Below are positions 4,301 through 51,620 of a DNA stretch of 52,454 nucleotides, piece by piece. Positions within the stretch are counted from its first letter, which is position 1. Each line of letters begins with the position of its first letter. The notes below the pieces were generated by a model. It had not been told where the DNA came from and did not search any database. It saw only the letters and a list, made by a program, of their open reading frames with translations. The position numbers were made by a program, and so were the translations under genes. Origin of the DNA: Chromera velia (Eukaryota; Sar; Chromeraceae); NCBI GenBank assembly GCA_018398765.1, contig JAHBMJ010000257.1, positions 1 through 52,454 on the forward strand. The letters are read 5' to 3'.

Positions 4301-7300
4301 TCCATTTTGTGCAAAACCCTCCACTTCCTTCTCTCTCTCGGATTGTTAACTTCTTTCTTCGTCTTCCTTCCTTCCCTCCTTTCTCCATCCAGGATCTGAC
4401 GAGGACCCATCGTCTCTTCTCTCTCGTTGAGGACGGAAACCTCCCTGTTGCGTCCCATTTCCGGCAATTTGTGACGGACAAGGGAAACGCACAGGTGGGT
4501 CACGTCATTTTGGGTGTTTTTTTCCTGCTGTTACGCAAGCGTTGTTGGATGCCGTTGCGTTCTGCATGTCTTTCGGATTTTGTACTTCTCTTCGCTCCTG
4601 AACAGAATAAGGTTTTGCGCCTTTCCTCTTTACCTTCTTCGAGGCATATCGGCACACTTCTCTCTCTCAGAAAAACAAAAACTCGTCCTCATTTGGCTCT
4701 CTTGATCTCCGAGCCCGTCTTTGCAGGTCGATGCGCGGGTTGAAATTATGAAGTCGCAGCCCAAGGTGGACCTCTCGGTGGGTAGGCAGGGGTGTTTTTC
4801 TTTTATATGTGTGAGGAAAGATGAGCTCTTATTCTCTTTCACTTGATATACGGAAAACTGTAAACCCTTACAGACAAATTCCCTCCTTCCCTGTCCTTTT
4901 CCCTCTCTTCGTTCCCGCCTTGACAGACCCACTTGCTGTTTCCGGATGCCTGCCTTTCTCTGTATTTCTGTCTCTCTGCCTGGCTGCCAAAAGAAGTCAT
5001 ATGGTCTATCTGGCTGGCTGAAGAAAGAAAAAAGATAAAAAGAAGTCATGTAGTCCGTCTGTCTGATTGTGTCTGCTTGCTGCCTCTCTGCCTGCCTGCC
5101 TTCGTGCCTGCAGGACCCCACGTTCATGCAGAGCATGGTGGACCTCCACGTGAACTTCAAGGGTCGGAGGGGGGGGGGGCAGATGGACAAGGAAGGAAGG
5201 AAGGAGAGAGAGGGAATCAAGAGGAAAAGAGGAATGCGGAAACATCGGCTCATTGAAAAAGAAGACTGCAGCTGGGAAAAGAAAGGCAGAGAGAAGGGGT
5301 GGAGAGATGCCGGCGAACGGTGGGAGAGACTCGTGTATGTTGACTGGGCCAAGCAGGCTGCCCTCTGTATGTCTCCCCCATATGCTTTCCCCGAAAAGGT
5401 GATCGCGCAGAACGATTGGACAGCTAGGTCTGGGTGTGGGGTTTTTCAAGGTTAGAAGAGCACGACCTCATGTTCCTTCGGCATATCCCTTCCTTCTCCG
5501 CTCCCCTTTTCTTCCTTCTCTCTCCATTTCGCTTGTGCGTTCTTCGCAGGAATCGTCGAGGAGTGCTTCGGAGACGATGCCCTGTTCCAGAAAGCATTGA
5601 AGGAAGGTGAGTGCCGACTGCTTGTGCCATGCTTGTTCCTTGGTCAAAGGGTCCTCCCTAAAGCGGTCGAGGGAAGTCACCCTTGTGTGTGGTCATTGAA
5701 GAAAGTATTCATTATTGGTCTTCTAGCTTTTCATCTCTTTGATTCATCCGTTTCTATTCTCTCCTGAACACGGCGTCACCAAGCCGGTCTGTCCATCTGC
5801 CTGCTCCCGTGCCTCTTCTTTCTGCCTTTCTTGCGTCTGCCTCTTCCCTCGGACCGTTTCTCGAGCAGAACAAAATGCATACATAAAAGGGTTCATTGTG
5901 TCATCCATGAACGGTTGCAGCGTTTGAGAATTTCATCAACAGAGATGTCGGCAAGGTGGGTCTCTCTCTGCCTCTCCCCCTGAGGGAAAGAACTTCTTTG
6001 TCCGGCCTCTTGTCTCTTCTGTGGTTTTCGTATGCTGTCCGTAGGCAGAGAAAAAGAAAGAGAGGCCCGTTTTTGCGTGTTGTTTCGTGGTGGGGTGGAA
6101 ATTGTGGCGGAGTCTGTAGATCTTTTTGACTCGCGGTGCAGTCTTTTTTTAAATTTGTTTTTGCTTTGCGCATGTTCTTCGATGCCCCTCTACAGATTCG
6201 GTGATTTGTCCGTCAATCAATCAATCCGTTCATCTGGAGGACCCCTTTTTTCTTTCTCTCCTTCTTTCTGTCTCTCTTCCTTCCTTCCTTCCTTCCTAAC
6301 TTTCTTCCTTCCTTCCTTGCCTTCTTTGTGCATGCAGTTCTCCTTCGCAGCTTTGATGTCCTCCTTCTGCGATCGGATCTTGAAGAAGTCCGGAGAGAAG
6401 TGGTCGGATGAACAGGTCAGTCAGCAGCCAGGCAGGCAATCAGCGTCGGAGGCCTGGCTGGCCTTGTCTCCAAGTATTTGTTTGTTCCCCTTTTCCTCTT
6501 TTTGTCCGTCTAGCCCAGAGTTTTCTTTGCGACTTTTTACGAAGAAAAAAGGGGAGACAGAGCGATGGGGGGGGGGAGGGAAGGGGTCATTCATGGAAAG
6601 TTTCCCTCCCAAGAACGCTGCCCGGTCGGGAATGTCTCTCTTCCTTCCTCCCTTCCTTCCTTCCTGCCTTCCTTCCTTCCTTGCCTCCTGATCTCTTGTT
6701 TTTCAGGTCGAGCTTGCTCTCTCTCGGGTCGTCGAGTTGTTCGCTTTCTTGACCGACAAGGATTTCTTCGCGGAGATTTACAGAGGGCAGCTGGCAAAGA
6801 GAATGCTGTACGAGATGAGCGCCTCAGACGATGCGGAAAAGTCCATGATCGCCAAACTAAAGCTGAAGTGCGGTGCGCAGTTCACATCGAAACTTGAGGG
6901 CATGGTCAACGATCTGCAACTTGCAGGGGTCGGTCAGTGCGTGTGATTTTTTTTTTCCTCAAGGAAAGGCGTGTGAGGGCTTTTTGTGGAGTTTTGGAGT
7001 GGCAGACCTTTGCGTGTTCTCGCGTGGGCTCCAGAATTTCGGCGCAGCTTCTGCGGGATTTTGCATTCACTGACTTGTGTGGCCTGCTTGACTGCCTGCA
7101 GGACCTCCAAAAAGAATTCGACGAGCACACGCAGAAGATGGAGAACCCGAAGGCCTCTCTTGGAGGGATGGAGGTCTCCGTACAGGTCCTCACGACGGGG
7201 TTCTGGCCGTCGTATCAAAGTCAGTCAGCAAGGAAGCAGTTTGGTCCACTCTGCATTTCACCAGCATTTGAGAGAAGAACAACTCCGTTTGTCTGTCCGC

Positions 7301-7745
7301 ATACCCTGCGGCAATCATTCGATGTCGCGCAGAAAGGAAAGGAGATCATGGCTCAAATGCGCGCGCAGTCGATGTACAGGGTCTGTCTGTCTGTCTGTCT
7401 GTCGAAATTTCTACTCCTGTGTGTGTGTGTGTGTACAGATTTGTCCTTCCCCTTCTCTACGCTCCGCACCTTCTCATTTCTCCCTCCCTCCCTTCCTCCC
7501 TCCCTCTGCAGCCCACGAGATCAACCTGGCGCCTGAGATGCAGAAGGCTCTCGCGACCTTCCAGACCTTCTACGGCCAGAAGACCTCCCACAGGAGGCTC
7601 ACGTGGGTGCACACACTTGGCAGCGCCGTGTTGAGGGCCCAGATGAGCTCGGCCTCCAAGGTGCACGACCTGATCGTCAACACCTACCAGGTCTGCTCCC
7701 AGTGCCCTTCTGTTCTCTTCTGCTGTTGTGGTCTGTTTTGTTGTT

Positions 7746-7796
<51 letters not shown>

Positions 7797-7914
7797 CAGA
7801 GAGACAGTTTGTGTATGTGTGGGCCTCCGCTCTTTGTTGTTCTCGCGGGGGAAAGTGAGAGAGACGCTGAACGGAAAGTGTGGATGGAGTTCCGTTCGGG
7901 TGGTAAAGAGAACG

Positions 7915-12998: not shown

Positions 12999-15900
12999 AT
13001 GGACGCAAGACGGCAGAGACTGGCGGAGAGGCGTTCGAGGAACACCTCGTTTCTGCCTTCTGCGAAAGCACAGTCTCAGCAGGTAAATATACGATCAAGT
13101 GAAAAGGTAGCGGAGCAGCACGCAGCACGCAGACAGAGCCAGAACAGTAGTGATCAAGGCGACCACCCGAAGGCCCTGGCCCCTCCACCAGTAAGAACGA
13201 GCGCCTTCCCAAACTTTGAAGACGATTCGACAGCCGGGAAGCCAAAAGACGCGTTCCCCGGTTTTCAAGAACAAGGTGCTTCGGCTTCCTCTTCGTCAGC
13301 TGATGACGATGACGATGATGATAACGAAGAAGAGCAAAGTACAGAGCAAGGAAAGACTGCACCAGCGACAGGACAAGGGGTAAAACCCAGGTCGGTCAGT
13401 TTGTCTCACTGATTCAAGGAAACCGAATGCCTGCATGTAGACGGAGACGGATCTGAATTCAACAACTTTCCGCAAGCACCTTCAGCATTTTCCATGGAGA
13501 CAATGTGTTTCAGTTCTTTTGCTGATAAAGTGTGCCTGACCCACTGGGTGGTGGCATGCCTGAAACACGACATAAATGCAAGAGGTAAATTAGAAGTGTT
13601 TTGTGCGTGCATACATGCATGAATGCAGGCAAACCGAAGCGGAGTCGAGCTCATCTGACGAGTCGGAAGAGAGCAGCAGCGCTTCTGCACCCACACAGAC
13701 AGTGCAAGATAAGGGACAAAGGGGGAGCGCGGCAAGTGGAGGCAGTGCAGGAGACAGAAAAACAGGTGCTCCGGTGTCTTCACCTGCAGATCAGAGCAGC
13801 AGCGGCAGCAGCAGTAGTGGCGAAGGAGAAGAAAGTTCGAGTGAAACGAGTGAGAGCAAGAGCTCTCCCGTTGCTGCAGAGGTCAAGCCCAAAGAGGATC
13901 AAGGCGTCACAGGGCAACAGGGCAGGAGGGCAAGTGGGAACAGTCAAAAGGAGCCTGATACACAGGCAGCTTCGCCAGCAGTAGCTGCAGGCGGTACTAG
14001 CAGCAGCAGCAGCAATAGTAGCAGCAGTGGAAGTGGGGAAAGGGTCTCCTCCCCTGAGGACCCTCCAGTGGCACAACCCAATTCTTCCTCTTCTCCGCGT
14101 GCGCGTCGCTCTTCACAGCGATCGAACAGCAACGGTTCGAATTCATCCAACCCGAGGCCTGGGTTGAACGAGGAAGGGGTGGTAGCTCGGAAGGACTCCG
14201 AAACCGCGGGGGTGAATACTCTTATGCAAGGACAAGAGCAAAATGGGAGGAGAGGATCGGTGCAGAGCAGTGCAAGCAGCACCTTCTCTGTGCCAGTAGC
14301 CACACGGGGAGAAAGGGGCGGGGCTTGGGACGGGAGAGATTCGGCAGACGGCAAAGTGGAGGGAAAAGGAAGGCGAGGTAATGGAGAGAGGCGACTGAGC
14401 GGCGGTTCTGTTGGTGAGCCGTCTCGCGGAGCTGACCATTTTCGTGGGTGGGTGGCAGAGACGGAAGAGAAGGAAAAAGAGGAAGCCCAATTGAGGAGAA
14501 CGACAGACGACTTCAGTCCCCCTGTGTTCTCTGCGCGTTTAGAGGACGAGGCCACCCTCAATTCTGCTCTGAAGAATGAGAGACAGCCTGAACAGTCCCC
14601 ACCAGTCATGGAAGCAGACAGCAGTCTCAAAAGGATCAGCGCAGAGTCTTTGGAGGTCAAAGAGGTCACGGAGACGAAAAAGCCGACGCTTGCCGCAATG
14701 GCTCGTCGTGTAAAAGAAGATGAAAAGGAAAAAACAGCGGAGATGGCAGCAGAGAAGGAGAAGCCAACACTTGCTGCTATGGCTCAACGAGCTAGTCAAG
14801 AGAGCAAGGCAGCAGCAAAGGACGCAAAGGGGAAGGGTGGCGTGAGGGGTGTAGGCCGTCTCATGGCTGCTTTTTTTCCGGGACGGAAGCAGGCAGCGGC
14901 GACTGAGGGAGGGGAAGAGAACGCGAAAGAGACTGTCGCAGAGACCGCGGAAAAATCAGATGCAGAGGAGAGGTACGAAAGCGAACAGAAATCCGCCCAA
15001 AAGTCGGGAGAGGCCTCTGCAGAAGAAGCAAAAGAGTCCTCTAAGCGAAACCCCCCAAAGCAGATGAGTCCAAAAGGATTTGCAAGAGCAGCGAACTTGA
15101 TGAACCTTTTCAGACGTTCCGACGACACCGAGCGTCCCCCTGCTGGCACAGACACGGCAGATGTCATCGCACTAGGAGAGAAAAAGGGAACAGACACAGC
15201 CGCAGAGGAAGCGACAGAAAACCCCACTGTGACAGCTGCAGCCCTCCCCGATGGCCTGGGTCTCGCCCCCTCTGCCCCCAATCTGGACCCCGCACAGGCC
15301 CAGCAGGAACTTATGCCCTTGTCCCAACCCCCCACAGTCGAAGAATCGGAGGGGCGAAGAAAGAGGGAAGACCGGATGGCAAAAATCAGAGCCGCCAAGG
15401 CTTTTTCCCAAGCCCGACCTCCCTCTGCTTCTGCGTTGAAATCCGCAGAAGCATCCAAAGAGGGGGGGGGGATTCAGATTCCCACAGCGACTGAATTTGT
15501 AGGGCAGCTGACGAAGGCCGTTTCCGGAATTTTGCATTCTGAAGATCTGTCCGAAGGTCAAAAGACGAAGAGTGAAAAGGGTATAAAAGAGAAGAAGATG
15601 GAGAAAGACCTCCACTCTGCCTCTGTTGAGGTGGGCCCTGACGACCCAACTAACCGTTCATTTTTCTCCACAGGTACCTTCTACCCCCTCTCGCATTCAC
15701 GCTTCCAGTCCGCAATGCTGGAAATTAAAATGCACGAAAGGTTGCAACAACGGGATCTGCCCCTCCCAAGAGGGGCCTGTGCATCCCTCAATGAACTCCT
15801 TGCAGACTTTGAGGGGGTCGGCAGGCGATCAGGGCTGTCGAAACCAATCGAAAGGGCAGATAGCGCCAACGCACGCTTCAGATCTGCAGGGAAGGAACAT

Positions 15901-17046
15901 TCAACCCTCGCTGCACGCCAAGACGCTTTTGAAAGAGGTGGGGCGAAGTCTTCTTTAGGCTGTAACGGCGAGGCGCCCCTCCTCGTTACTGATTCTTTCT
16001 GGGGTCCGTTGTGTCTCGACAGAGAGCGAGAGCCGAGAAGAACTGACAGATCTCAACCCCACACAGCGAATGCATTGATGAGACAGGCAAAGTGCAGACA
16101 GGACGGTGGATTGATTCTTTATCCGTCAGGTGCGACTCGAGCAGAGGACTTTGAAGAGATGGATCTGGGAGGATTCGCACCCCTGTCTGTTATACAGAAA
16201 AGAGACCGACAGAACGAGTTGACAGAGACTCAGAGAGAAGCCGAGTTACTTCGGCTTATGGAGAATATGCAGAGAAATGCAGACATGAGAAGGGAGGCGG
16301 ACAGGAGCCTCCAGTCAGCAACGGTTTTGGGAGAATCTTTCCGAACAGCAGAGGCAGAGGCAGAGGGAAGGATTGCGACTTCTCGGGCTCTCGTCGCCGA
16401 GAAGCAGAGAGAGAGCCCCCCACGCCGCCCTTTGAATGTTCGTGTGGAGGCCGATGGGGTTCTTTCACCTGTCAGAATGTCGCCCACTTCCCTTCCCAAA
16501 TCCACTGTAGCAGCGGAAGGGAGAGAGAAGGTCAGTCCCGTGTCTGTCCGAAGCCGGCGGTTCCCGACAAAAGAGGCAATGACCGAGTTGGATGGCTCCT
16601 CGAGACGGTATACGAAGGGAAGTTCTGTAGAGACACTAGAGCTGCCGTACTTTGGACCGATTCCCCCATCGTCTCTGCCTCGGCCGGGGGCTCTGGGTAG
16701 CGACACGCTCACGACAGAGCCCCGCCGTATGGCTCGTGAGTTTGCTCAGATGCCCGCACGCTTGTTTCCCTTCTCAAGCAGGCAAGGAGGGCAGGGGCTG
16801 CCTGGAGGGCGTCCGGGAGAGAGGGCGACTAAACAAGAAGAGGCAGCCAGAGTGTGGAAAGCAAAACTGGAAAACGCACAAATGCGTCCTGATGAGACAT
16901 TAGCCGAGGTGGGCCGGACAGAAAGGGTGCATCCAAATGGTTGCTTACCCACCTGCTTGCTTGAAACCCAAGAAAAATTGAGGGGATGGACAGGAATTCT
17001 TCTCTGTATTCCTTGGTTTCCTTCTCTTCTTTCTTTCTTTTTTTTT

Positions 17047-17085
<39 letters not shown>

Positions 17086-20000
17086 GCTATGTCTTTCACC
17101 CGCGCTTTGCACTTTCCTTTTTCGTTGTCGTGTTCGTCCTTTCCCTTTTTGTATATTTCCAAGGTCCACTCATGTCCTCACATACCTTCGCCTTGTGACT
17201 TCATTTTTCATGGACTTCCTTTCTTTGCTTTCGTTTACTTTTTCGCATCTTTGTTGTCTCCCGTGTCCACTTCTTCCTTTGAAGATCAACCTTTGCCCCT
17301 TGTCTTTCGCCTTTCCTGTATTGTTAGTGTCAAGTGCCATTCAATCAGTAAGGAAATCGACCTACCTATTGACCCACCAGCTGTATGAGTCGAAAATCGA
17401 TGCTCTTTTCCTTCCTTACCTGCCTGCCTTGACTGAAATTGACTTCCTCTCTGACTCGGTAGGTCTCTGATCTGCACGTCTTACCACTTCCACATAGCTT
17501 CTTTGCATGCGTGCTCTCGTGATCTTTTCTCTTGATCACTCTCATGCTTCTCTCATGCACGCAGAGCGTAGATGAAAATTCAGTTGTCGAGACTTTCCTT
17601 CGGAGGGCTGCCTCACCCTCAAGGTCACTGAACAGGAGGGAAGAAGTGGGAGCGAATAAAAGCAGTGCATGTTTGTGTGGAGGCGGCGCCATGTTTTCGG
17701 GATTCGTTCCCTTCCCCACGCCGTTGGCTCTTTCCGGACCCTGGCAGCATGATCATGTGAGTGGCGTGGGAAGGGTAAACACTCCAGAGGATAGTAACGG
17801 TGCGGGGGGGTTCGGAAGCAGGGAGAACCGTAGCAGCACGCCCCAGGCCTCAAGAAGCGTCCAGACCGTGACTGAGGGGGGCACTCAGACCTGTGCAGGG
17901 GAATTGGCGAGAGCCCAGGCAGGAGCTTCGCAGGGCCTGCAGGTGAATACGGCGGTACAGACGCCCAACGATGCGGATGTGCAGACAGACGCTGATCCTT
18001 CTTCGTTTCCCTCCTGTCTCCCGGGAGCGTTACGGATGGCAGACGCACAGATGCAGACACTTGCAGAAACGCATGTACAGACCGACCCAGATGAACAGAG
18101 GGGGGTGTCTGTGCAGACTGTGACGACTTCCGGAGTGCAAACGGTCGAGGGAGGCATAGCGACTTTAAGTGATTTGTCCCCCGAGGCACAGGAATTAGCT
18201 CGGCAGGGAATGAATATGAAGTTCTTAACCCCACAGAAGAAGCGTGGAGAAGAAGAGTATCCGCCGATGGACACGAGGATCACCCCTGATGATGCAAGAA
18301 AGAAGAAGAAGAATGCGAAAGCGGTGTTCCAAGCGAATCGATGGATCAGTAGGATGTTCAAGTCCAAGTCTCAACTGGGGGAGCAGACTGATGAAGAGAC
18401 CGCAGGAGACACCGAGGTAGAAGAAGAAGGGGAGCATGCAGACAGAGCGATGTCCCTTCTTGAAGCAGAAAAAAGCGTCAGATTCCGACAGAAAGCGCTA
18501 CCACGCGCTGCCCATGCATCTGTGTTCATGTCTGTGGCCCCCTCTCCCTTAGTTGAGCCGGCACAAGCACAGGAGAACCCCCCCCTCCCTCTGCTGAAGG
18601 GAGGCATGTCTGCTGCTTCCATGTTCATGGCACCACAGGTTCCCAGAGCCCCCCAGACAGACGAATACTTTGGGTCTAACAACGTGACTCCTCGAGAGGA
18701 CCCTCTCGCAACGACACAAAAAGATCCGCTTCAAGGGGCAGGAGGATTCCTAGACGCTCTGGGAACTGAGCATGAGAAACATTCATGGAAGGAGGAGGGG
18801 GGTGTCGGAGGGACAGAGAAGGACCCGAATGTTCAAAATCTTCACCTCACACGCTCTCCGAGGGAAGGGGAAGGGGAAGGGGAAAGAGGGATGGAGACAG
18901 ACAAGAGATCTTCCACAAATCGGATGCATGTCTACGCAAAGGCTTCGACTCTTGGTGCCCCCCGCAAGAGAGGTTCCTCAACCGCTACCGCCGGCCCAAG
19001 CCCAGAATATTCACGACCCGAAATTGCCTCACTGCCCAATGAAAAGCACCCTTCAAAAGAAGCAGAAAGAAGGGCGTCTGTTGAGAAAGCAGCAGACGTG
19101 ACACAGAGCCCTTCTTTGCTTCCCCAAACTTCAGCTTTCTCATTCAAACCCTCGCAAAGCACCAGCAGCGAAGGAGGTGTAGAGACTGCCAACGGGAAAG
19201 ATGAGCAGCAGAGGGGCGGACTTAGAAGGAGAGAATCAAGAGAACAAGAGGAACCGCAAAACCGTCGACGATCCAGCAATCAGAGCATTGTCGTCAATCC
19301 TCCTTTCGTCGATGCCGACTCCCAAAACAGACCCTCCATTTCGCAGAATTCCGATCGGGTGGCACCCCCATTGGGGCAGAGGTCCGACGAGCTGCCCACT
19401 TCAGACTCTTTCCTGAAAAAAGAAGAAAAGAAGAAAGGTTTTCAGGACGATGACGGGTCTGTAGAGGAAATGCCGCTTGTGGAGGCCATGCGTGAGGCCG
19501 CAGACCAACAGGCGAGAGGGTCCAAGCTCCGGGAGTGGGAGACTCCGGGTGATGAGGAGGGCGGCGACGGCCAGCCGTCTCCTCGGTTCCCCTCTTTTCC
19601 CCATGAGGGCGATGAGGCAGGAGCAGAAGAAGAGGAAGAAAGGGAGAATGATGCTGTGCAGGGGGCGAACAGTAAGTCTGAAAAGCGCCTGTCTGACTCG
19701 ATAAAAGAAGATCGGAGACGGCGTATTGCAGCTGCACGTGCGGGCATCGGATTGAGTCGGGGCAGCAGGAGAGAGTCACAGGGAAGTGTCTATCAAATTC
19801 CTTCAAAGGAGGGGACCCAGGAGGATTTGCAGGCAGCTTTGGACCGCGAAGAAGAAAACGGAGAGGATAGGGTTGAAGTGGGAAGGCTTTCCGAATTTGT
19901 GAAGCTGCCTGAGCCTCATGAAAACGTACAAATAGAATCAGGCGCTCTCAGAAGTCACCCAGAAGGTTCTGATGCCAGTGCAGAGGAAGACGAGGAGGAG

Positions 20001-20510
20001 GACGAAGATGGGGAGGAAGAGGAGGAAGAAGAAACAGACTCCGAGGAAAGAGAAGGGAAAAAAGCCTTTGAACAGACGTCGAACCCTGCCATATCCGCTG
20101 AGAGTCTGCAAGAGCCGGTAGAAAAGCGATTGAAGGGGCCGCGGCGTCAATCCTCCGCTGAAGGGTTCCCGCCCCACGAGGCCCCACCCAGTCTTCGTCA
20201 AGGCACTCGTATCAGCGTCACTCTCCCTTCAAAGACAAAATACCGCCGGCGTGTTTCAGAAATAGATGGGGCAGCTGAATCTGTACAGAGCTTGAACGCA
20301 GCAGCAGAAGAAGAGGTGTTAAAGAAACGACCGTCTTCCCTTCGATTTCAGACTCTTAATCTTGTTGGGGCGGATGTGGACGACACACCCAAAGCGGCAA
20401 TGGTGGACTTGAACTACCGCCAAATCGATATGCAAAAATCAGGGAGCGATCGTGGTCACTCAAACTTTGTTCCGTTAGACAACTTTTTAGACGATGAAGA
20501 CAGCGATTAA
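12999..20510 (+). CDS. Large low-complexity protein with eight regularly spaced QT motifs, 3 exons
   Basis: Exons 12999-13390, 13629-16908 and 17565-20510 join in frame (phases 2 and 0) to give 2205 residues. The start is the first ATG in an open frame that has no earlier in-frame ATG; it begins MDARRQRLAERRSR. I recognise no enzyme domain. In order: an acidic run near 102-112; Ser-rich tracts from about 135 to 330; two copies of KPTLAAMA at 482 and 509; basic-hydrophobic stretches RLMAAFFPGRK (about 546), NLMNLFRRSDD (about 621) and WISRMFKSK (about 1483); the motif EDRxxxIxAAxA near 712 and 1940; a QT array at about 1324-1417; and acidic runs near the C-terminus, which ends NFLDDEDSD. Most of it should be disordered. 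The QT array suggests a hub that binds dynein light chain LC8, perhaps cytoskeletal, but that is inference. Intron 2 carries a TTTC repeat. The exon 1 end and exon 2 start are set by a GTCGGT donor and a TGCAG acceptor. Confidence 0.85.
17031..17085 (+). repeat. (TTTC)n microsatellite in intron 2 of the QT-array gene
   Basis: The tract runs in the intron 16909-17564. The second exon's frame stays open across it by chance, giving Phe/Leu/Ser repeats, but the GTGGGC donor at 16909 and the TGCAC-GCAG acceptor before 17565 fit a normal intron. Confidence 0.85.
17859..18143 (+). other. Array of eight x-Q-T motifs (candidate LC8-binding segment)
   Basis: The encoded motifs are VQT, TQT, VQT, VQT, MQT, VQT, VQT and VQT, with Gln codons at 17862, 17886, 17958, 17982, 18054, 18078, 18114 and 18138. 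The spacings are 8, 24, 8, 24, 8, 12 and 8 residues, all multiples of four. Several have flanking acidic residues (DVQTD, HVQTD, GVQTVE), as in known LC8 ligands. The codons differ between copies (GTC CAG ACC, GTA CAG ACG, GTG CAA ACG and others), so the pattern is kept at protein level rather than being a recent DNA duplication. Confidence 0.8.
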
Positions 20511-31642: not shown

Positions 31643-34600
31643 CGCATGCTTCACACAATTTTGCCGACTTCTTTTCCCTTTTTTGCCACATCTTTTCCAC
31701 AATCGACTTTGAACACAGACACAGACACACACAAGTACGCGCGCTCAGTATTTTTTTCTCTGGACATGCACACAGACATACAAGAGGAGGGGCACGATTC
31801 TAATTGAAACTTCCTGGACTTAATTTTCCTATCCTCTGCCTCACAATCTGATCCCATGAGTACATCGATGGAGCACACTCTCAGCAATACACAGATGATT
31901 TCTTACCGGATGAAACTACCCTACGATCGTCACTGTGCTGATTGAGTTTCAAAAAATTTGATGAGAAAGCTGCTTGGAGACTACTCTCTGCCCACCTTCA
32001 GCTTGAGGACCACCGCACCGAAGCTAGAGTTTACCTCCAACAGTCTCATCTTGTCCTTTTTCGTCCCAATCGCAAACACGACACGGTCATCAGTCGGTCG
32101 TTTTGGGGGGTTGTGGTTTGGGTATGTCGACGGGAGCATCGAGAAGCAGAGAACATGATCACGGCAGTTGACTGTCTGCAGCAACGTTCCGTTATCCACC
32201 CGCCAGATCTTCATGGTCGAATCTATCGAACCACTCGCAAGCCGATCCTCTCGACCTGGGGGGAAGAACACAAGCCCTGTCACGCAACGCGCGTGCCCGG
32301 TCAGACGGGCGTGCGACACCACGGGGGAGGACTCAGCCGAGTTACGGGCAACGTCCCATACCCATGCATCGTCCCTCTGACCCCCCTGCGTGTCTATCGG
32401 ATAGGAATCGTCCCCCCTACTCACCCGCGCCTTCTCTGCTGCCATTTCCACTTCCGCGGGGGTCCGATAGATGCGGTGGAGTGTCACCTGCCCATTGCGC
32501 GTACCGCACGCCAGCATGATGAAGTGCCGTCTGATGCGCTCTTGGCCGAAAGCAAGAACGTACACTGCAGCCCTATCGACATCCCCTCCTACCGCAGGCA
32601 CAAATTCTGTCGCTACTCGGACATCGCACCAGGACGGTGTGGGTGTGATTGTCGTCTTGCCATTGGGTCTCTTTTCTTTGGGGTCTGCTGACAGAATTGC
32701 TGCTGGGGGGGCTTGAAGAGAGTCGGCAGACAAGGAAGCCTTCAGAAAAAGAGCACCCGACTCAGCTGAGGGTGGCGTTCCGGTTCGGCTTTCTCTGCTG
32801 CTGCTGCTGCTGTCCTTGTCCTTGTCTGATGATCGGTGGGATGAGATTGGAGGAGGAAGAGGCAACACAGGCGTCGCGGTTGCAGGTGCCACACCCAAAA
32901 GCGACGGCTTCGGACCCACCGGCGGAACGGGGGCAGAAGGTGCCGATGGGGGGGCGGAGAGTACCTGCACGTGCACGTGTGCGTTTGGGTGCACTTGGGA
33001 GAGGGGGGGTTTGTGTGGCAGGAGGGGGGGTGGAGACGGCTGCAGACCTTTCGGAGAAGCCATCACCTTCACTCCATTCACACAGAGCGCTTCCCCCACA
33101 GACCTCTCTCTCGGCAGAGTGCCAGAAGCAAAGCTGCCGGAGTCGGATGCCGCAGACCCTACAGACCTCCCCCCTCCCCCGGCTGAAAACGGCAGAGGGA
33201 CCTGGGTCGCGTGAGACTCGGAGGCTCCGGAGGCAGATGCCCCGCGCTCGGGGTCCTCCTGACTGCCCCCCGACCCTGGTCCCCCTTGAGCTTGAGGATC
33301 GAACAGGGGAAGAAGCAACGCCCCCCCTCCGCCTCCTGTGCGAGCGGAAGAGCTACCGGAAAGGGATATGGGGGTTGGATCGCCAGACTGAGGGGGGGGC
33401 ACACCGAGAGGAGGGTAAGGGATCCTGCCGTTGAGGGAATGTCGCGGCATGGGTTGGGGGACAGAGTGGGATCGTGGAACAGCACATGCCTGTTGTGTCT
33501 GTCCATTCACTGTCACCGGGTTGGAGGGCGAGAAGGCGAATGCAGCAAAGTCGGGGGAGGAGGAAGGAGACGGTGTTGCAGCAGGAGTCGTGGCAGAAAC
33601 ATCTCCCGAGACAGGAGAGGGGAGAGTCCCCCCCCGCACGTTAAACTTCCTTTGAGAAGGAGGTCCCCCCCCTCCCATAGCAGCGGTCGGACAAACCGGT
33701 TCATCCACTGTCCTGGAAAAGGAGCCCCCCGGAAGAACAAGGGGGTTCGGTCGGGAGCAAGCTCCGTCGCCTCTTCCCTGTTTCATCGGGGGGGGTCCTG
33801 GAGGAGGGGGTGGTTGTGATTGTGGAGCTGGTGTCTTTGCTTGCTGCTGTGTCGGAGCTTCAGCTGCAGAACCGGAGAGGTGAGCTTTGGCGGATGCAGC
33901 AGCGGGAAATGGACTCACGGCTCCTTGATATGCTGACAGGGATGCCAGATAGGACTTCGCTATGTTTTCCGTCAGCTGTGCAACAGCTCTAGCAGCTTCG
34001 GCAGCAACTCCCGGATCGTTTTTCTGCTGCTGTTGAAGAAAGAGGGCAGGTCCGTTGGGGGTGGGGGAGGCGGTATCTGAACGGGCAGACGGGGCGGTAG
34101 GAAGCGGACTGTGAGACTGCATCACTGCAGCAGACACTGACACTGCAGATGCCGGAACCGATGGCAAGAAAGGAGGGTAACTTTGACCCCTCATGGCAGC
34201 ATGCGGAGGGGGAGACTGACACGGAGACTCGAGAGGACAATCTATTGGTCCTCCGTCCAGCAAAGTCTCGATTTGCTGTTCCCCTGTCTGCTGTCTCTGT
34301 GACCTCTCCGTCTCCTTCTTCTCCCCCCTCATCGTTGGAGAATTCGAGAGAGCCTCCGAAAGGAGAAAAACCTTTCGGTTGCTGTTGCTGCACCCACTAC
34401 TGTTGTTCGGCTGCTGCTGCTGGGACGAACTCAGATTACTCGGTCCTTGCGACTGCTGTTGCAGCTCCAACAGAGACGTCAGCTTCCCGGGGTGGGGGGG
34501 ACCGACAGGAACTAGAACAGGTTGGGGAGGGGGTGGGGAGACCATCGGAACTGGACTCTGTTGCTGCTGGTGGGACGGGGTGTAAACCTCGGGGGTAGGC

Positions 34601-37251
34601 TTCTCACAGCCGCTGTAGACATGCTTTCCGTCCCGGAGGTGGGGGGGGTGGTCCCCCTCTTGTCTGCCTGGTCCCGGAGCGGGTGTCACAGGGTGTGGGG
34701 GGGATGTCTGGTGATTCCACTGGACAATATGGGGGGGCTGGGGGGGTGCAATGCGCTGCTGTAGCTCTCGCGATGTGTGGAGGGAGGAGGAGGGATGGGA
34801 TAGAGGCATGGGTGCACTACCATTTCCAGTCCCCCCATTCATTCCGTTCGACCCGACAGGTACAGGCACCGCTGCCGGATGGGGAGGAAGGAGCAGATGG
34901 AGGTCCCGCTCTCGCTGCGACTGTCCGTGAAGAACACGCATTAAGTTGGCCGGAGGAGACGGAGAGGGAGAGGGGGAGGACGCTGAGGCACTGGAGTCAT
35001 TTAAGTTCTCTCTCTCCCTCTGCAGTGGACTGGGGGTTGGTGAGTCGAGAGAACAGGCTTCCACTAGAGACAAGGGCTGCTTTTGAACTTTATTCGGGGG
35101 TCTCGTCAGTAGCTGTAGCTGCTGCGGCTGTTGCTGCGGCCTTTGACTTGAGGTCGGCATCGGCACAGATGGAGGAAGAGGGCAAGGACCCGTGCCCCCC
35201 GTTGGGTTTTGGAGGGAGGGTCCGAAGGGTGCGGGTGTCCATGACTGAGTGTGAGGGGCAGAGGGCGGAAGAGACGGTGATCCTTCTGGGAGGGGTCGAG
35301 ACGATTCTTTTCCTCCAGAGAAGGAAGGGGGAGACGGAAGATGTTCTTTTCCGATGGGGGGGCCATTTGGTGCTGCTATTGATCCTGAACGACCACCCAG
35401 CAGAACCCCCTCAGGCTCCTTCTGCTTCTCCAATCGGAGCCGGAGGATTTGCACCTCCTCCTCCAGACGTAGGCGGTCCTGCTTGAATTCTTCTAGAGAC
35501 AACTCAGCAGCCTCGGCACGTGCTTGAAGCTCGCGTTGTTTGGTCACACCCTGACTGGCTTGCTCAGTCAAGGCACTCACCTCTTTCCGTGACATCAGCA
35601 GGGCCTTTTTCATGAACTCTGTGCTCGCGTCCCACCCTGACACAGGAGCACCCGGGGGGACCGCTGGAGAGGAGGATAGCTGAAGGGATCGATAGTTAGA
35701 AAAACCGAAGCTCTCCGATTTGCTCTCCTGACCCGACGGTACATCCACCCCCCCCTCCCAGGGGGTGGCAGTGCCTGGGGAAGGTCTCAGTCGGTCCTGC
35801 TTTTGGAGCGGAAAGCTGGTGACCGCCTGTGTGAGGACATCGGATGCCTTCTGCAGGCGTGTGGCGACGCTGAAGAAAAGGGCGTTTTGACTATCGATTT
35901 TCTTTCGGAGGAGTTCGGCGGTGCTTTGCGGGGTCGGGGGCTTGTCTGTGGATCCTTTGCGAGCGGCTTTCTGGAGGAGCTTGAGATCTTCCAAACAACT
36001 TGAGAGCTTTGCCTTCAAGGCCTCTTCTTCGGCACTCAGAACGAGAGGGGGGACATAGGCGGAAGTGGAGAGGGGATCACTCGACGGTGCAGGGGAGACG
36101 GAGTGGGTGTGGGGGGAAGGGGAAGGGGAAGAGAACGGAAGGGCAGCTGTCTTTGGCTCCCCTGCCCATGCGTGTCCTTTTTTGTCACTCAGACTGTCGG
36201 GGCAAGGGGGGGGAGGGGGGACAACCGAAGGAGAAGAAGAAGGGGGAAGGTGAAGTTTCTGGAGGGTCCCGTTGCCTCTGTCGGTGGGGAAGGGAAATGG
36301 AAGGAAATACTCTGGAGACTGGGGGGTAGAGGGACTTGCTTCCCCTTCCCCCTCGTGATCCCACAAGGGCACCTCGGGCTCGAGAGATAGAGCGCCCATG
36401 CTGACAGACGAAGCCTTCTCGTGCTTTTGGTGGTTGTTATTGTTGGGGGCAGAGTGGCGGTGTTGCATGCCGTTTACCCCGACACCCACTCCTCCATTCA
36501 CGGGAGTGTGGGATGGAACGGGAATCGGAGAAGGGACCTGCAGGCGGAGAACGCGAACATTCCTGCCGCAGGTTTCCTTTCCTTTTTCTACAGCAGGGAG
36601 GGAAGAGGTGGAAGGGCGAGAAGAGGAGAAGGAGGGGGCAAAAACGCCTCCTGAAGGCTTTCCGTCTCCTTTCCTGCTCCCCTCTGGTGGGAGGGGATCG
36701 TGCGGGTGAAGGAAGAAATCGTTGGGGGTCAGGGGAAGGGGGTTCTTTGTTTGGAGGAGCGGCGAGGGGTTTCGACCCAGCCTCATTGTGTCAACTGATT
36801 TGGGGGTGTCAGAAGGGGGCGTTGAGCTGCCCGAAGAGGAAGAGGAGGAGGCGCCCGCCCCCCCTGCAATCTTTTGGGGCAGGGCCTCGCTCCTCCCCTC
36901 CCCTTCTCCCTGTTTGTCCTGCGGAGTCTGCGACAGATGGTTGTCATCTTGGGACGCGTGCCCAAAGAAAATGTGCGTCTGTCGCTGTTCTGAGGACGCC
37001 ACAGAGCCCCCAGTGGTGGTAGTAGGGGTGCCAGCAAGGTCGTTCTGCTGCTGATTTTGTTTGTTTCGATTGAATAGATCTGCCAGCTGGATCCGGCCAT
37101 CTGCCACTAGGGAAGTGGCAGCCTGCTCATCCAGAAAATCACTGCTTAGGTCTGCGGGGAGAAAGGCATACAGCTCCTGCCCACCCCAAGACGCACAAGA
37201 GTCGTCATGCGCATCTTCTTCTGCCGGAGAGGGAACGTCTGCTTTCTTCAT
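30357..37251 (-). CDS. WDR13-like WD40 protein with a giant disordered N-terminal extension, 3 exons
   Basis: Minus-strand exons 37251-31996, 31587-31048 and 30641-30357 join in phase 0 and give 2026 residues. The C-terminal part, from about 1574, is a WD40 propeller matching WDR13 blade by blade: MLACGTRNGQVTLHRI, a TGH before RLASGSIDSTMKIWRV, then FAIGTKKDKMRLLEV, GLVFTGTRQGAIDVV, LLVSSNDHCLTILSV, FVVSGSEDSRVQVF and a final VLAVAVSDTESLLVS ending in VLWRRGGV. Animal WDR13 is about 485 residues, so roughly 1570 residues are added in front. That extension is Pro/Ser/Gln/Gly-rich with two predicted coiled coils (about 405-485 and 535-615). WDR13 is a nuclear WD protein in animals whose exact role is not settled. 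The start is the first ATG after an in-frame TAG about 18 bases upstream. Introns contain CA repeats. The family call is firm for the C-terminus; the extension is not recognised. Confidence 0.88.
30891..30980 (-). repeat. (CA)n microsatellite in last intron of the WDR13-like gene
   Basis: A CA tract with a few interruptions lies in the intron between the second and third exons. A further CA/GA run (about 31592-31640) directly precedes the TTGCAG acceptor of exon 2 on the minus strand. Confidence 0.85.
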
Positions 37252-38326: not shown

Positions 38327-39646
38327 ATGGAGAGGGACGCGAAAACTCTTTCTATCGTACAGGAGGAGCTCGAGACCCTTGCTGGGGGTCTTCTCGAAGT
38401 TGTCGAGATGATTCGCGGCGTGGGACAAGTTTTAAAAAGCTGCAACTGGAGTGACGGAGACGACAGTCCGTCCCCCTCTGTCCCTCAACAACCGCAACAG
38501 CTTCGGGGCATGCCTCAGCAGCTGCCGCATCCAGAAGCTTCTGCACTTGCAAAGGTGAAAGAGGCAGTCAATACGATGAGGAATGGGGTTAGGTTGGAGT
38601 TGAACAAGGTGGTGAACTTGTACTACAAAATGGATCTGTCGCCACTGTTTGAGTGCGACATTGCCCACAAGATCCGGTCTTTCCAAGTCGTCACACCTGA
38701 GGCGCTGAATGAAGCCCTTGAGGCGTTCCTGGTGACAGGAGATGAAGCAAAAAGAGATGATTTCATGCTTCTTCTTCGTGTAGGAGCGCAGATAGATGGA
38801 CTGATAGAAGATCAAACAGCCCTTTTGCGGGCAGTCGAATTTGACAATCTTGAGGTGGTGAAGATTCTGGTAGGGGAGGGGGCAGGGCTGCAGGTGGTGG
38901 GGTCTGATGGTTTCTCACCGCTCCACTTCGCGTGCGCTAGTCCTCCGTCGCCTCAAATCGTCCGATTCCTTGTGTCAGAGGGTGCCGATGTGGATGCGAA
39001 GGACAACGACGGGGAAACGCCTCTCCATTGGTTGGCCACGACGGATCAGACGGACCTCATGGAGCTGATTCTCTCAAAGGGTGCGGACATTGACGCCAAG
39101 GATAACAAAGGGGATACAGCTCTCCACCATGCTACCATGGCCGGGGTGAGAGAAGCCGCAGAGTGCCTTCTTGATCATGGTGCCAAAGTCAATGAAGAAA
39201 ACAGCCGGCGCTTCACACCCCTCCTCACCACTATAATTTTGCACAATGACGAGCCGACTGACCACCGAGATGTGGCCCAGCTGCTTATTTCTCGTGGGGC
39301 GAACATCAATCATACATCCCGGAGAGAGGGGTTGGGACTCTTGCACTATGCAGCTGTTCAGGGGTCTGCAGATGTTCTTGAGCTTCTGCTCGAAAACGGA
39401 GCGGATGTGCACGTGACAGACACGCAAGGACGGACTGCTTTGCACCATGTTGCATCAGTTCCGTTTGATGCACTTGAGGATGAGTTAGAGGCGAAGAAAC
39501 TTCGCATTGCCAAGCTTCTCGTTGCCAGGGGCATCAACGTGAATGCTTTGACCAACGACGGTCAGACAGCACGTGCAATCGCATTCAGAAAAAGACCTCC
39601 CCACTCAGCAGTTCGCGCTTACCTTTCTGGATTGCCTTCATTTTAG
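38327..39646 (+). CDS. Ankyrin-repeat protein, intronless
   Basis: A single uninterrupted frame of 439 residues starts at the ATG at 38327 and ends in TAG. Residues 1-40 and 75-100 are probably helical or coiled coil, separated by a Pro/Gln linker (about 47-68). From about 161 to the end there are about eight ankyrin repeats, several with the canonical TPLH/TALH and GADVD/GADID signatures (for example DGETPLHWLA at 228 and GADIDAKDNKGDTALHHA at 252). Two repeats have longer loops (about 300-320 and 377-392). Ankyrin repeats bind other proteins; no catalytic domain or membrane segment is visible, so the partner and role are unknown. It is one of two intronless genes here, in contrast to the 23-exon cullin. 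Confidence 0.93.
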   Translation: MERDAKTLSIVQEELETLAGGLLEVVEMIRGVGQVLKSCNWSDGDDSPSPSVPQQPQQLRGMPQQLPHPEASALAKVKEAVNTMRNGVRLELNKVVNLYYKMDLSPLFECDIAHKIRSFQVVTPEALNEALEAFLVTGDEAKRDDFMLLLRVGAQIDGLIEDQTALLRAVEFDNLEVVKILVGEGAGLQVVGSDGFSPLHFACASPPSPQIVRFLVSEGADVDAKDNDGETPLHWLATTDQTDLMELILSKGADIDAKDNKGDTALHHATMAGVREAAECLLDHGAKVNEENSRRFTPLLTTIILHNDEPTDHRDVAQLLISRGANINHTSRREGLGLLHYAAVQGSADVLELLLENGADVHVTDTQGRTALHHVASVPFDALEDELEAKKLRIAKLLVARGINVNALTNDGQTARAIAFRKRPPHSAVRAYLSGLPSF

Positions 39647-49483: not shown

Positions 49484-50099
49484 TGTATCAAAAGACAAGG
49501 ACCTTCAGCACCGCATGTCCGGAGAAGCATTGCCATGCATGTTTCTTAAGATCACTGAGCTCGTGTTTCCATGCATGCAGACTGATCACTTCGAGGTACT
49601 GATGCAACGCCTGGCTCGGTCTTTTCATGGACAACTCTCAAAATCTTTGTCCAGTGGCTGTTTCCAGACACTGATTCTGTAACTGAATTGGAGACTCAAT
49701 GGAGAGCTACAGACAGCAACGCAGCCAACGCTCTCACACTGATCGAGTGATCGACGTTCTGCAATCTTCGATACAACCGTTGTCTGCATGCATGCGCATG
49801 ACCGAGCTAAACCGCGCGGATATCCCTGCATGCATTCACTGCATGCATGTCACGAATCATGCAGAAAGAGCTAGCTCCCGCTATCTCCCGGCGACTCCCG
49901 CTTCCAAGTGACTCAGGGAATCCGAAGTAATTAAAAAAGAGTATCAGATCGCGACTCCCCCACAACCACAGACTGCATGCCAGTGTGTGAGCCTGACGCG
50001 CATTTTAACTAACAGGCACGGGAAAACCGTGTTGATCCTCCCTACGCTGCTTTGAGCCTCTGCCGGCCTGAATCTCAGTGGCGCGTAGACGGACCGAAG
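49484..50099. promoter_or_regulatory. Divergent upstream region between the Ser/Pro-rich gene and the Aat-like gene
   Basis: The two genes are transcribed away from each other, so both promoters should lie here. Several TGCATGCA palindromes occur (near 49545, 49575, 49790, 49828 and 49840). I see no clear TATA box and no coding exon. Confidence 0.45.
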
Positions 50100-51620
50100 A
50101 TGCAAGCGTCTCTCCGGCAGCCGCGCCCGGTCGATCCCTCTGCTGCTCCCCCTTCTGCGAATGAGCAGAAGAGGAGACCTTTCAGCTCCCTTCCTCCAGA
50201 AATGCAGGAAGAAATCAGGCAAAAGCAGAAAGCAGCGAAAGAAAAGAAGAATGTGCAAGGAGACGGGGTCCGGTCAAAGTCTTCGGGCCGACAGGTTCCC
50301 TCTGCATCATTGCTTTCAGACAAAGCTGCAGACTCCAAACCGGAAGCCGCCCTTCCACTGGCATCAGCTTCTTCGTCTTCTTTCTCCCCCGGTTCCGATT
50401 CCTTCCCTTCGATGATCACAGAAGCCCAGTACTTCGCAGCATGCCCCTACAGCTTCTTTTCCCACCGCTCTCTCACCGCATCTGAAGAGTCAGTGGACAC
50501 TCTTATGACACAAGTCAAAGAGAAGAGAGTTGTGGGGTACGCAGGTGAGAACCCGGTCACCATGGCCGAGTTCCATTATTTTTCTTTTCAGGGGACAGAC
50601 GAAGAAAAGTGGAGCCCCCGTCTGTACGCCAAACTTGCTTGGGAAGGCTTCTTTACAATCACCCAGGGAGCCCGGTCGGGCAGACACCACACACCCCTCC
50701 CCGAGTTACAACCGTTTTACTCCGTAGTGGAGTGGCGCAACTTCCATTCCTGTAAGCACGTGAAGAAAGGGCTCCGGAGGTTGCGGTCCAGTTCGGGTGT
50801 GGGCAGGCTTGAGTTGCGGTGCACGACAGATGTGGACAGTGTGTGGAGAGGTGTGACGCAGTACCATGAGGACCTGCACGGCGTGAATTGGCTGTCGAAG
50901 CGGTATCTTGAGACAATGACGAAGGCATCTGCGGATCCAGAACTGAACTTTCGTGCGCATGCGATTGCGTTATATGTCCTCCCTCCTGAGACAGGAGGAG
51001 GAGACGGAAAAGGGGGGGAAGAGGGTTTGGGAGGGTCGGGGGGGGGGAGCGAGTCTGAAGTTGTAGACAGAGAGCCTAGGTTGATTGCGGGTGAAATTGG
51101 GTACAGCATTGGGCCTGTGTATACTAGCCTGAGCGGGTTTAGTGAGCGTCTAGAAAGAGAAGGTATGCATGGGGGGGAGGAGGATTGGGTTGACGAGGAC
51201 GAGGGGGGGACTGGAAAAGTCATGGAGGATGCTCGAGAAGTCACTGCAAAGACGGCAAGCAGTGTCGACTCGGACGTTCTTGATCTAGGGGGGGTAGGAG
51301 CGGGTACTGCTCAGCTTCTCCTCCTCGGTTTGTGGCTGGAAGAAAGGGGGTTTTCGTTTTGGAGCCTGGGGCATTGTTACTCACCCGCAATGGATTACAA
51401 GCGGAGGCTTGGACATCGGGTCCTCCCTCGTGAGGCTTTCCTCGAGAGGTTGCAGGAGGTCCGGGGGCCCTTCATCCGCCCTCCATCGGGTGATTTGGGC
51501 GGAAGGAGTCTTGAGGTAGGGGGAGGGGGGGAGAGTGGAGGTTCCAAGTCCAAAGGATTCCAGCCGTTTGCGGGAGATGATAGTGTGGCTGCAAAGAAGC
51601 TGCTTCGAATCCAAACATGA
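50100..51620 (+). CDS. Leucyl/phenylalanyl-tRNA-protein transferase (Aat) family protein, intronless
   Basis: The first ATG in an open frame, at 50100, gives 506 residues in one exon. Bacterial Aat moves Leu or Phe from tRNA to the N-terminus of proteins with basic N-termini, marking them for ClpAP. The match runs from about 180 to 455: EGFFTITQG (182), FYSVVEWRNFHSCKHVKKGL (206) where bacteria have the FHxSRSLRK block, LELRCTTDVDSVWRGVTQYH, a GVNWLSKRYLETM that replaces the GTWI block, RAHAIALYV (HSVEVW block), LIAGEIGYSIGPVYTSLSG (GGLYGV block), GTAQLLLLGLWLEERGF and LGHRVLPREAFL. Bacterial proteins are about 235 residues; here there is a 100-residue disordered N-terminus and a Gly/Glu-rich insertion at about 297-325 plus an acidic one at 352-395. 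The ESMFS and IDCQ catalytic-site motifs of bacteria are not preserved, so activity or specificity may differ. No clear targeting peptide. Family call moderate to good, reaction uncertain. Confidence 0.8.
   Translation: MQASLRQPRPVDPSAAPPSANEQKRRPFSSLPPEMQEEIRQKQKAAKEKKNVQGDGVRSKSSGRQVPSASLLSDKAADSKPEAALPLASASSSSFSPGSDSFPSMITEAQYFAACPYSFFSHRSLTASEESVDTLMTQVKEKRVVGYAGENPVTMAEFHYFSFQGTDEEKWSPRLYAKLAWEGFFTITQGARSGRHHTPLPELQPFYSVVEWRNFHSCKHVKKGLRRLRSSSGVGRLELRCTTDVDSVWRGVTQYHEDLHGVNWLSKRYLETMTKASADPELNFRAHAIALYVLPPETGGGDGKGGEEGLGGSGGGSESEVVDREPRLIAGEIGYSIGPVYTSLSGFSERLEREGMHGGEEDWVDEDEGGTGKVMEDAREVTAKTASSVDSDVLDLGGVGAGTAQLLLLGLWLEERGFSFWSLGHCYSPAMDYKRRLGHRVLPREAFLERLQEVRGPFIRPPSGDLGGRSLEVGGGGESGGSKSKGFQPFAGDDSVAAKKLLRIQT

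Follow-up and report, generated by a model that had tools for sequence, protein, structure and literature searches.

The dynein light chain LC8 binds its clients bivalently and in parallel (PMC12017986), and eight residues are taken as the length of the core LC8 motif (PMC5746249). Few clients have more than two sites, a count from 2018 listing three besides ASCIZ (PMC5963919), and the multivalent clients in the published accounts compared here belong to yeast, animals, ciliates or green algae. In yeast Nup159, an array of motifs in a long protein provides five sites for LC8 (Dyn2) and forms a stiff beads-on-a-string rod (PMC12017986). ASCIZ (ATMIN) has 7 sites in the fly and 11 in human, and complete loss of LC8 binding by the human protein required that three SQT/VQT motifs be mutated as well (PMC5963919). 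RSP3 carries TQT-like motifs, and the base of Chlamydomonas RS1 holds four LC8 homodimers (PMC12399478); GKAP/DLGAP1 is a disordered scaffold with close non-TQT motifs (IQV, VQV), in which two chains are joined by two dimers (PMC12797016). The linkers between neighbouring eight-residue motifs are at least three residues long in the published clients compared; for the three-residue linker of ASCIZ QT2-3, the proposal is that adjacent dimers make contact and tumble together (PMC10046861, PMC12797016).

Among apicomplexans and chromerids, no multivalent LC8 client appeared in the titles or abstract openings among the matches listed. In Toxoplasma, depleting DLC8a, an LC8 homologue located at the apical tip, lowers microneme exocytosis (PMC10294612).

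Here we describe an array of QT motifs in a 52,454-nucleotide stretch of the Chromera velia contig JAHBMJ010000257.1 (hereafter the window), whose protein a first-pass annotation had proposed as an LC8-organised scaffold. As the best available explanation, and with moderate confidence, we regard the array region as a multivalent LC8 docking segment that would take one dimer per pair of motifs.

A paired QT array in a predicted 2205-residue protein

Joining the three exons of the predicted gene model (Table 1) gave a translation of 2205 residues with one terminal stop, the length given in the first-pass annotation; use of the alternative donor at 16927 in place of 16909 adds six residues (2211-aa version). 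Eight xQT triplets span positions 17859-18143, ~100 residues into exon 3. Their Q codons lie at 17862, 17886, 17958, 17982, 18054, 18078, 18114 and 18138 (Q1324, 1332, 1356, 1364, 1388, 1396, 1408 and 1416), and the residues preceding QT are, in order, V, T, V, V, M, V, V and V, giving a [T/V/I/M]-Q-T anchor at 8/8 sites. The Q-to-Q spacings are 8, 24, 8, 24, 8, 12 and 8. The array thus consists of four copies of xQT-x5-xQT, of which pairs 1-3 start every 32 residues, while pair 4 starts 20 residues after the start of pair 3, with its first Q 12 residues after the last Q of that pair. The motifs as first annotated were exact by codon position, and the spacings and the 32-residue steps of the first six motifs were reproduced by residue count.

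Table 1. Positions of the predicted exons, the motif pairs and other features in the window
Feature	Position	Strand	Description
Exon 1 of the 2205-aa protein	12999-13390	+	start ATG at 12999, open frame, donor GT at 13391
Exon 2, Ser/Glu-rich, domain-less	13629-16908	+	open frame, AG acceptor before 13629, donor GT at 16909
Exon 3, with QT array	17565-20510	+	995-aa open frame, AG acceptor ending at 17564
Motif pair 1	17859-17891	+	VQT (Q1324) and TQT (Q1332), 8 apart
Motif pair 2	17955-17987	+	VQT (Q1356) and VQT (Q1364), 8 apart
Motif pair 3	18051-18083	+	MQT (Q1388) and VQT (Q1396), 8 apart
Motif pair 4	18111-18143	+	VQT (Q1408) and VQT (Q1416), 8 apart
Cullin-family fragment	6986-7858	+	E 5e-14
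Pro/Ser-rich frame	31981-37251	-	1756 aa; WD40-like matches near C-terminus, best E 1.1e-8, all below curated cut-offs
Ankyrin-repeat protein	38327-39646	+	439 aa; Ank_2, E 2.2e-75
Open frame	50052-51620	+	522 aa; no Pfam match over cut-off

No Pfam match was found for exon 1, and neither of the other exons matched a Pfam family over the cut-off (best for exon 2, REX1-B, E 0.2, 12.7 of 24 bits) or a PDB sequence at E<=1. A search of viral contigs returned no relatives of the protein. In its own genome (177.8 Mb, 4040 contigs), exon 3 retrieved itself and one weak 80-residue match to its acidic C-terminal part (E 7.4e-4), and the array alone retrieved, apart from itself, eight matches, all weak (E 0.04 to 7.6); no second copy of the protein was found there. 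From its composition, the array-bearing protein appears to be mostly disordered. Within the array, "disordered" is a matter of composition, with one aromatic residue in 108, and the TOP-IDP mean is lower there (0.165) than over the whole protein (0.226). A crude heptad scan of the protein found no strong coiled coil: even in its best windows every second a/d position was unfilled on average, and one such window, 1471-1504, lies ~55 residues C-terminal of the array. Elsewhere in the window, the 522-residue frame bears a resemblance by eye to Leu/Phe-tRNA-protein transferase.

The count and spacing of the motifs are beyond chance. Shuffling of the whole protein (2211-aa version, n = 20,000) gave at most three [VTIM]QT per array span, against the eight observed, and when the 110-residue array region was shuffled with its own Q/T-rich composition, eight or more QT arose in 15 of 200,000 trials. 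Eight motifs were also placed at random in the array span (500,000 drawn; 261,015 kept after discarding those with adjacent motifs): at least four equal spacings occurred in 1179 placements, spacings that were all multiples of four in 10, and both together in 4, these properties having been picked post hoc, after the data had been seen. A background of 42 records (211,494 bases), which includes overlapping loci and some chosen for similarity to the array, was scanned after leaving out two records that repeat the array. In its 1909 open frames of at least 60 residues (211,211 residues), the four occurrences of the [VTIM]QT-x5-[VTIM]QT pair all fell within the array; the next densest [VTIM]QT cluster had four triplets and lay in microsatellite sequence of the TDRQT type (L031).

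We considered whether the array could be a decayed repeat with no present binding role, left either by an old tandem duplication of 32 residues or by a CAGA-type microsatellite. The 32-residue recurrence of three pairs would suit the former. As for the latter, three of the eight weak array matches (L031, L032, L035) are CAGA-type repeats with QT-rich open frames of TDRQT type, from which spurious QT arrays can arise in this genome, and frames in L031 and L035 read TDRQTDRQT; at the other five loci, three xQT were never found together in an open frame of 60 aa. The DNA surrounding the motifs, however, does not derive from a recent repeat. No tandem repeat was called (TRF) at 17859-18143; with the QT codons set aside, DNA identity is 27-44% among the pair units and 25% between the two 12-codon spacers. 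Motif copies share the third base of the T codon in 18% of pairs, which bears out the original remark that codons differ between copies. When the four units were aligned by their QT over 20 residues, the sole invariant columns were the Q and T of both motifs; this conservation arises by construction, because the motifs were aligned for containing QT, but the variation of the surroundings is not imposed by the alignment.

The codon frame of CARAC words points the same way. In the array they are distributed 8:2:0 among the frames, with eight in the Q-T frame and two, as a repeat relic would allow, out of it; elsewhere in exon 3 the ratio is 5:8:2, and exon 2 gives 2:7:2. Since the bias is confined to the array, it is the protein frame that is enriched. 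The divergence around the QT speaks for protein-level selection or else for a duplication long ago, and the earlier judgement that these are likelier than a recent DNA repeat is upheld. A neutral relic would be unlikely to retain QT and the eight-residue spacing yet lose nearly all else, and we consider a decayed repeat without a present role unlikely.

LC8 in the same genome and the quality of the motifs

The organism has, as judged by sequence, a canonical, near-invariant LC8. Among the five Dynein_light matches in the genome (L001, L002, L003, L004 and L005), L001 is the LC8 gene, an uninterrupted frame of 89 residues with 80 of 84 aligned residues identical to PDB chain 1pwj, dynein light chain 2. 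The identity includes the stretch NFGSYVTHE, which we take to be the partner-binding strand of LC8. An RSP3 homologue exon was located on the minus strand of another contig (C2198, L042), in a gene distinct from the window gene. It contains the TQT-like motifs IQTD, TQTD and TQI, at spacings of 20 and 25 residues as counted by eye, which score 9.7, 12.2 and 0.9 with the peptide-derived matrix described below and served as a control from within the genome. As RSP3, a family of LC8 clients, keeps TQT-like motifs here, such motifs are probably in use in this organism. The window protein itself was rejected as an RSP3 or radial spoke candidate, there being no Radial_spoke_3 Pfam match in exon 2 or 3 and the RSP3 homologue lying elsewhere.

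In the same genome, light-harvesting proteins accounted for 58 exon-level matches and the alveolin-type IMCp family, which also matched one bacterial control, for 11. A coccidian origin was considered and set aside in view of these matches and of the uL3 exon, whose score against 5xxb (Toxoplasma; 260 bits) does not exceed that against 9h3g (a plant; 264 bits). RuBisCO was not found in a profile search of the genome (PF00016). Chromerids have a form II RuBisCO, with which this absence does not fit.

To score the motifs, a matrix was derived from 28 binders: 11 of the 12 'Y' rows of Table 1 and all seven rows of Table 2 in PMC6607443, six of the seven fly ASCIZ peptides, gephyrin, two GKAP sites and a phage consensus. 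Excluded were four rows marked 'weak', a repeated MUC4 row and QT3 of ASCIZ, itself weak. For the nonbinders, 25 of 43 rows were taken and ANKIB1, whose last QT is at the peptide end, was dropped, giving 24; the 18 rows left out are mostly without a QT anchor, PLK1 and UBN2 having one. The matrix separated the two sets moderately (AUC 0.80), with a leave-one-out binder median of 13.6 and a nonbinder median of 9.0, the latter for peptides that had been preselected.

The array sites score, in order, 10.5, 12.8, 8.8, 12.1, 5.5, 11.2, 8.7 and 8.3. Seven of the eight thus reach 8 or more, as against one of the 2190 other octamers of the protein, and that one overlaps motif 1; five other open frames of the window (4327 residues) have four such octamers. 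Eight of the protein's 11 best-scoring octamers come from the array. The scan singles out the array, but every array site (5.5-12.8) lies below the binder median of a matrix with moderate separation.

The flanking residues give a similarly mixed picture. LC8 motifs are described as having no large hydrophobic residue at -4 and no internal proline (PMC6607443), and both hold at 8/8 array sites. Nearly all tight binders have a residue of at least Val size at -3 (PMC6607443); in the array this residue is smaller than Val at 6/8 sites and large at 2/8. At +2, where P or D is favoured and hydrophobic residues are disfavoured (PMC6607443), P or D stands at 3/8 sites and Val or Leu at 4/8. In the peptide tables of the same source, VQT peptides bound LC8 in 3/3 cases and IQT peptides in 0/3, and none of four peptides with Val at +2 bound (SH3RF2, QSER1, DAZL, EIF3C). 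With scores below the binder median and +2 and -3 often disfavoured, the affinity of a single array site is probably weak to moderate, so that binding would depend on avidity; a strong neighbour helps to fill a weak site in ASCIZ (PMC12797016).

The proposal of an LC8-organised scaffold accordingly stands in part: LC8 is present, the motifs resemble validated VQT binders and they dominate the top octamers, but half of them have a hydrophobic +2. We know of no other domain that reads xQT at an eight-residue period. A partner other than LC8 that docks on the VQT pairs through this period nonetheless deserves mention. The within-pair spacing of 8, kept in all four pairs, is tighter than in the LC8 clients compared (shortest linker 3), and hydrophobic +2 residues are disfavoured by LC8 (PMC6607443). 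The LC8-preferred P or D at three sites (PMC6607443) speaks against such a partner, which we consider improbable.

Spacing and predicted LC8 occupancy

Taking eight residues per motif, the array linkers are 0 within pairs and 16, 16 and 4 between pairs. Against the three residues of the shortest linker in the clients compared, the linkers within pairs are too short and those between pairs long enough, which bears on occupancy and not on whether the protein is a client. Motifs with Q residues 8 apart abut directly, and we expect no more than four LC8 dimers, one per pair. Enumeration gave the same limit: when the minimum Q-Q spacing was set to 9, 11, 12 or 13, no more than four sites were compatible with one another, in 16 ways for a minimum of up to 12 (one motif per pair) and in 12 ways at 13. 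That LC8 fills all eight motifs at once as a dense rod of eight dimers is highly improbable, for although an eight-residue core (PMC5746249) would let the motifs abut without overlap, dimers are proposed to touch already at a three-residue linker (PMC10046861, PMC12797016), a linker of zero leaves less room, and the minimum Q-Q spacings enumerated allow at most four sites.

Four sites with two registers each are therefore probably to be favoured over eight sites, the steric step being taken from published linkers. Eight separate sites filled at once are made unlikely by the zero-residue linkers; we prefer the caution given with the scaffold proposal, by which a pair may serve as a single site.

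We infer LC8 binding with one dimer per pair, duplex formation and a scaffold role for the window protein. Each VQT-x5-VQT pair would be a single LC8 dimer site with two alternative registers eight residues apart, and as many as four LC8 dimers would zip two parallel chains together. Such zipping would stiffen and dimerise the protein.

We also entertain, as a speculation that is probably wrong, that zero-linker pairs are a new kind of docking unit, in which the choice of register would let the duplex slip or stagger and off-register bridging would build longer assemblies, in a cytoskeletal or cortical scaffold of chromerids. If true, such bridging would contrast with the mainly in-register complexes described so far.

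Comparison with described LC8 clients

If LC8 docking with one dimer per pair is correct, a chromerid client with four tight pairs would extend the list of multivalent LC8 clients, and the array would be a natural test of the minimal distance between two LC8 motifs. Zero-residue linkers were not found in any LC8 client among the published accounts compared.

By our analysis, the nearest working analogues are Nup159, ASCIZ and RSP3. Like Nup159, the window protein is long and bears a motif array, but its motifs are paired eight residues apart and it is without a Pfam match over the cut-off. ASCIZ shares the mixture of short and long linkers; its anchors, however, are mostly TQT (six of seven fly peptides) where those of the array are mostly VQT, and its shortest linker is three residues where that of the array is zero. 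RSP3 differs in its Radial_spoke_3 domain, which the window protein does not match, and in the wider motif spacings of 20 and 25 in the homologue from this genome. GKAP/DLGAP1 has two sites with a 17-residue linker (PMC12797016), as compared with the four pairs of the window protein.
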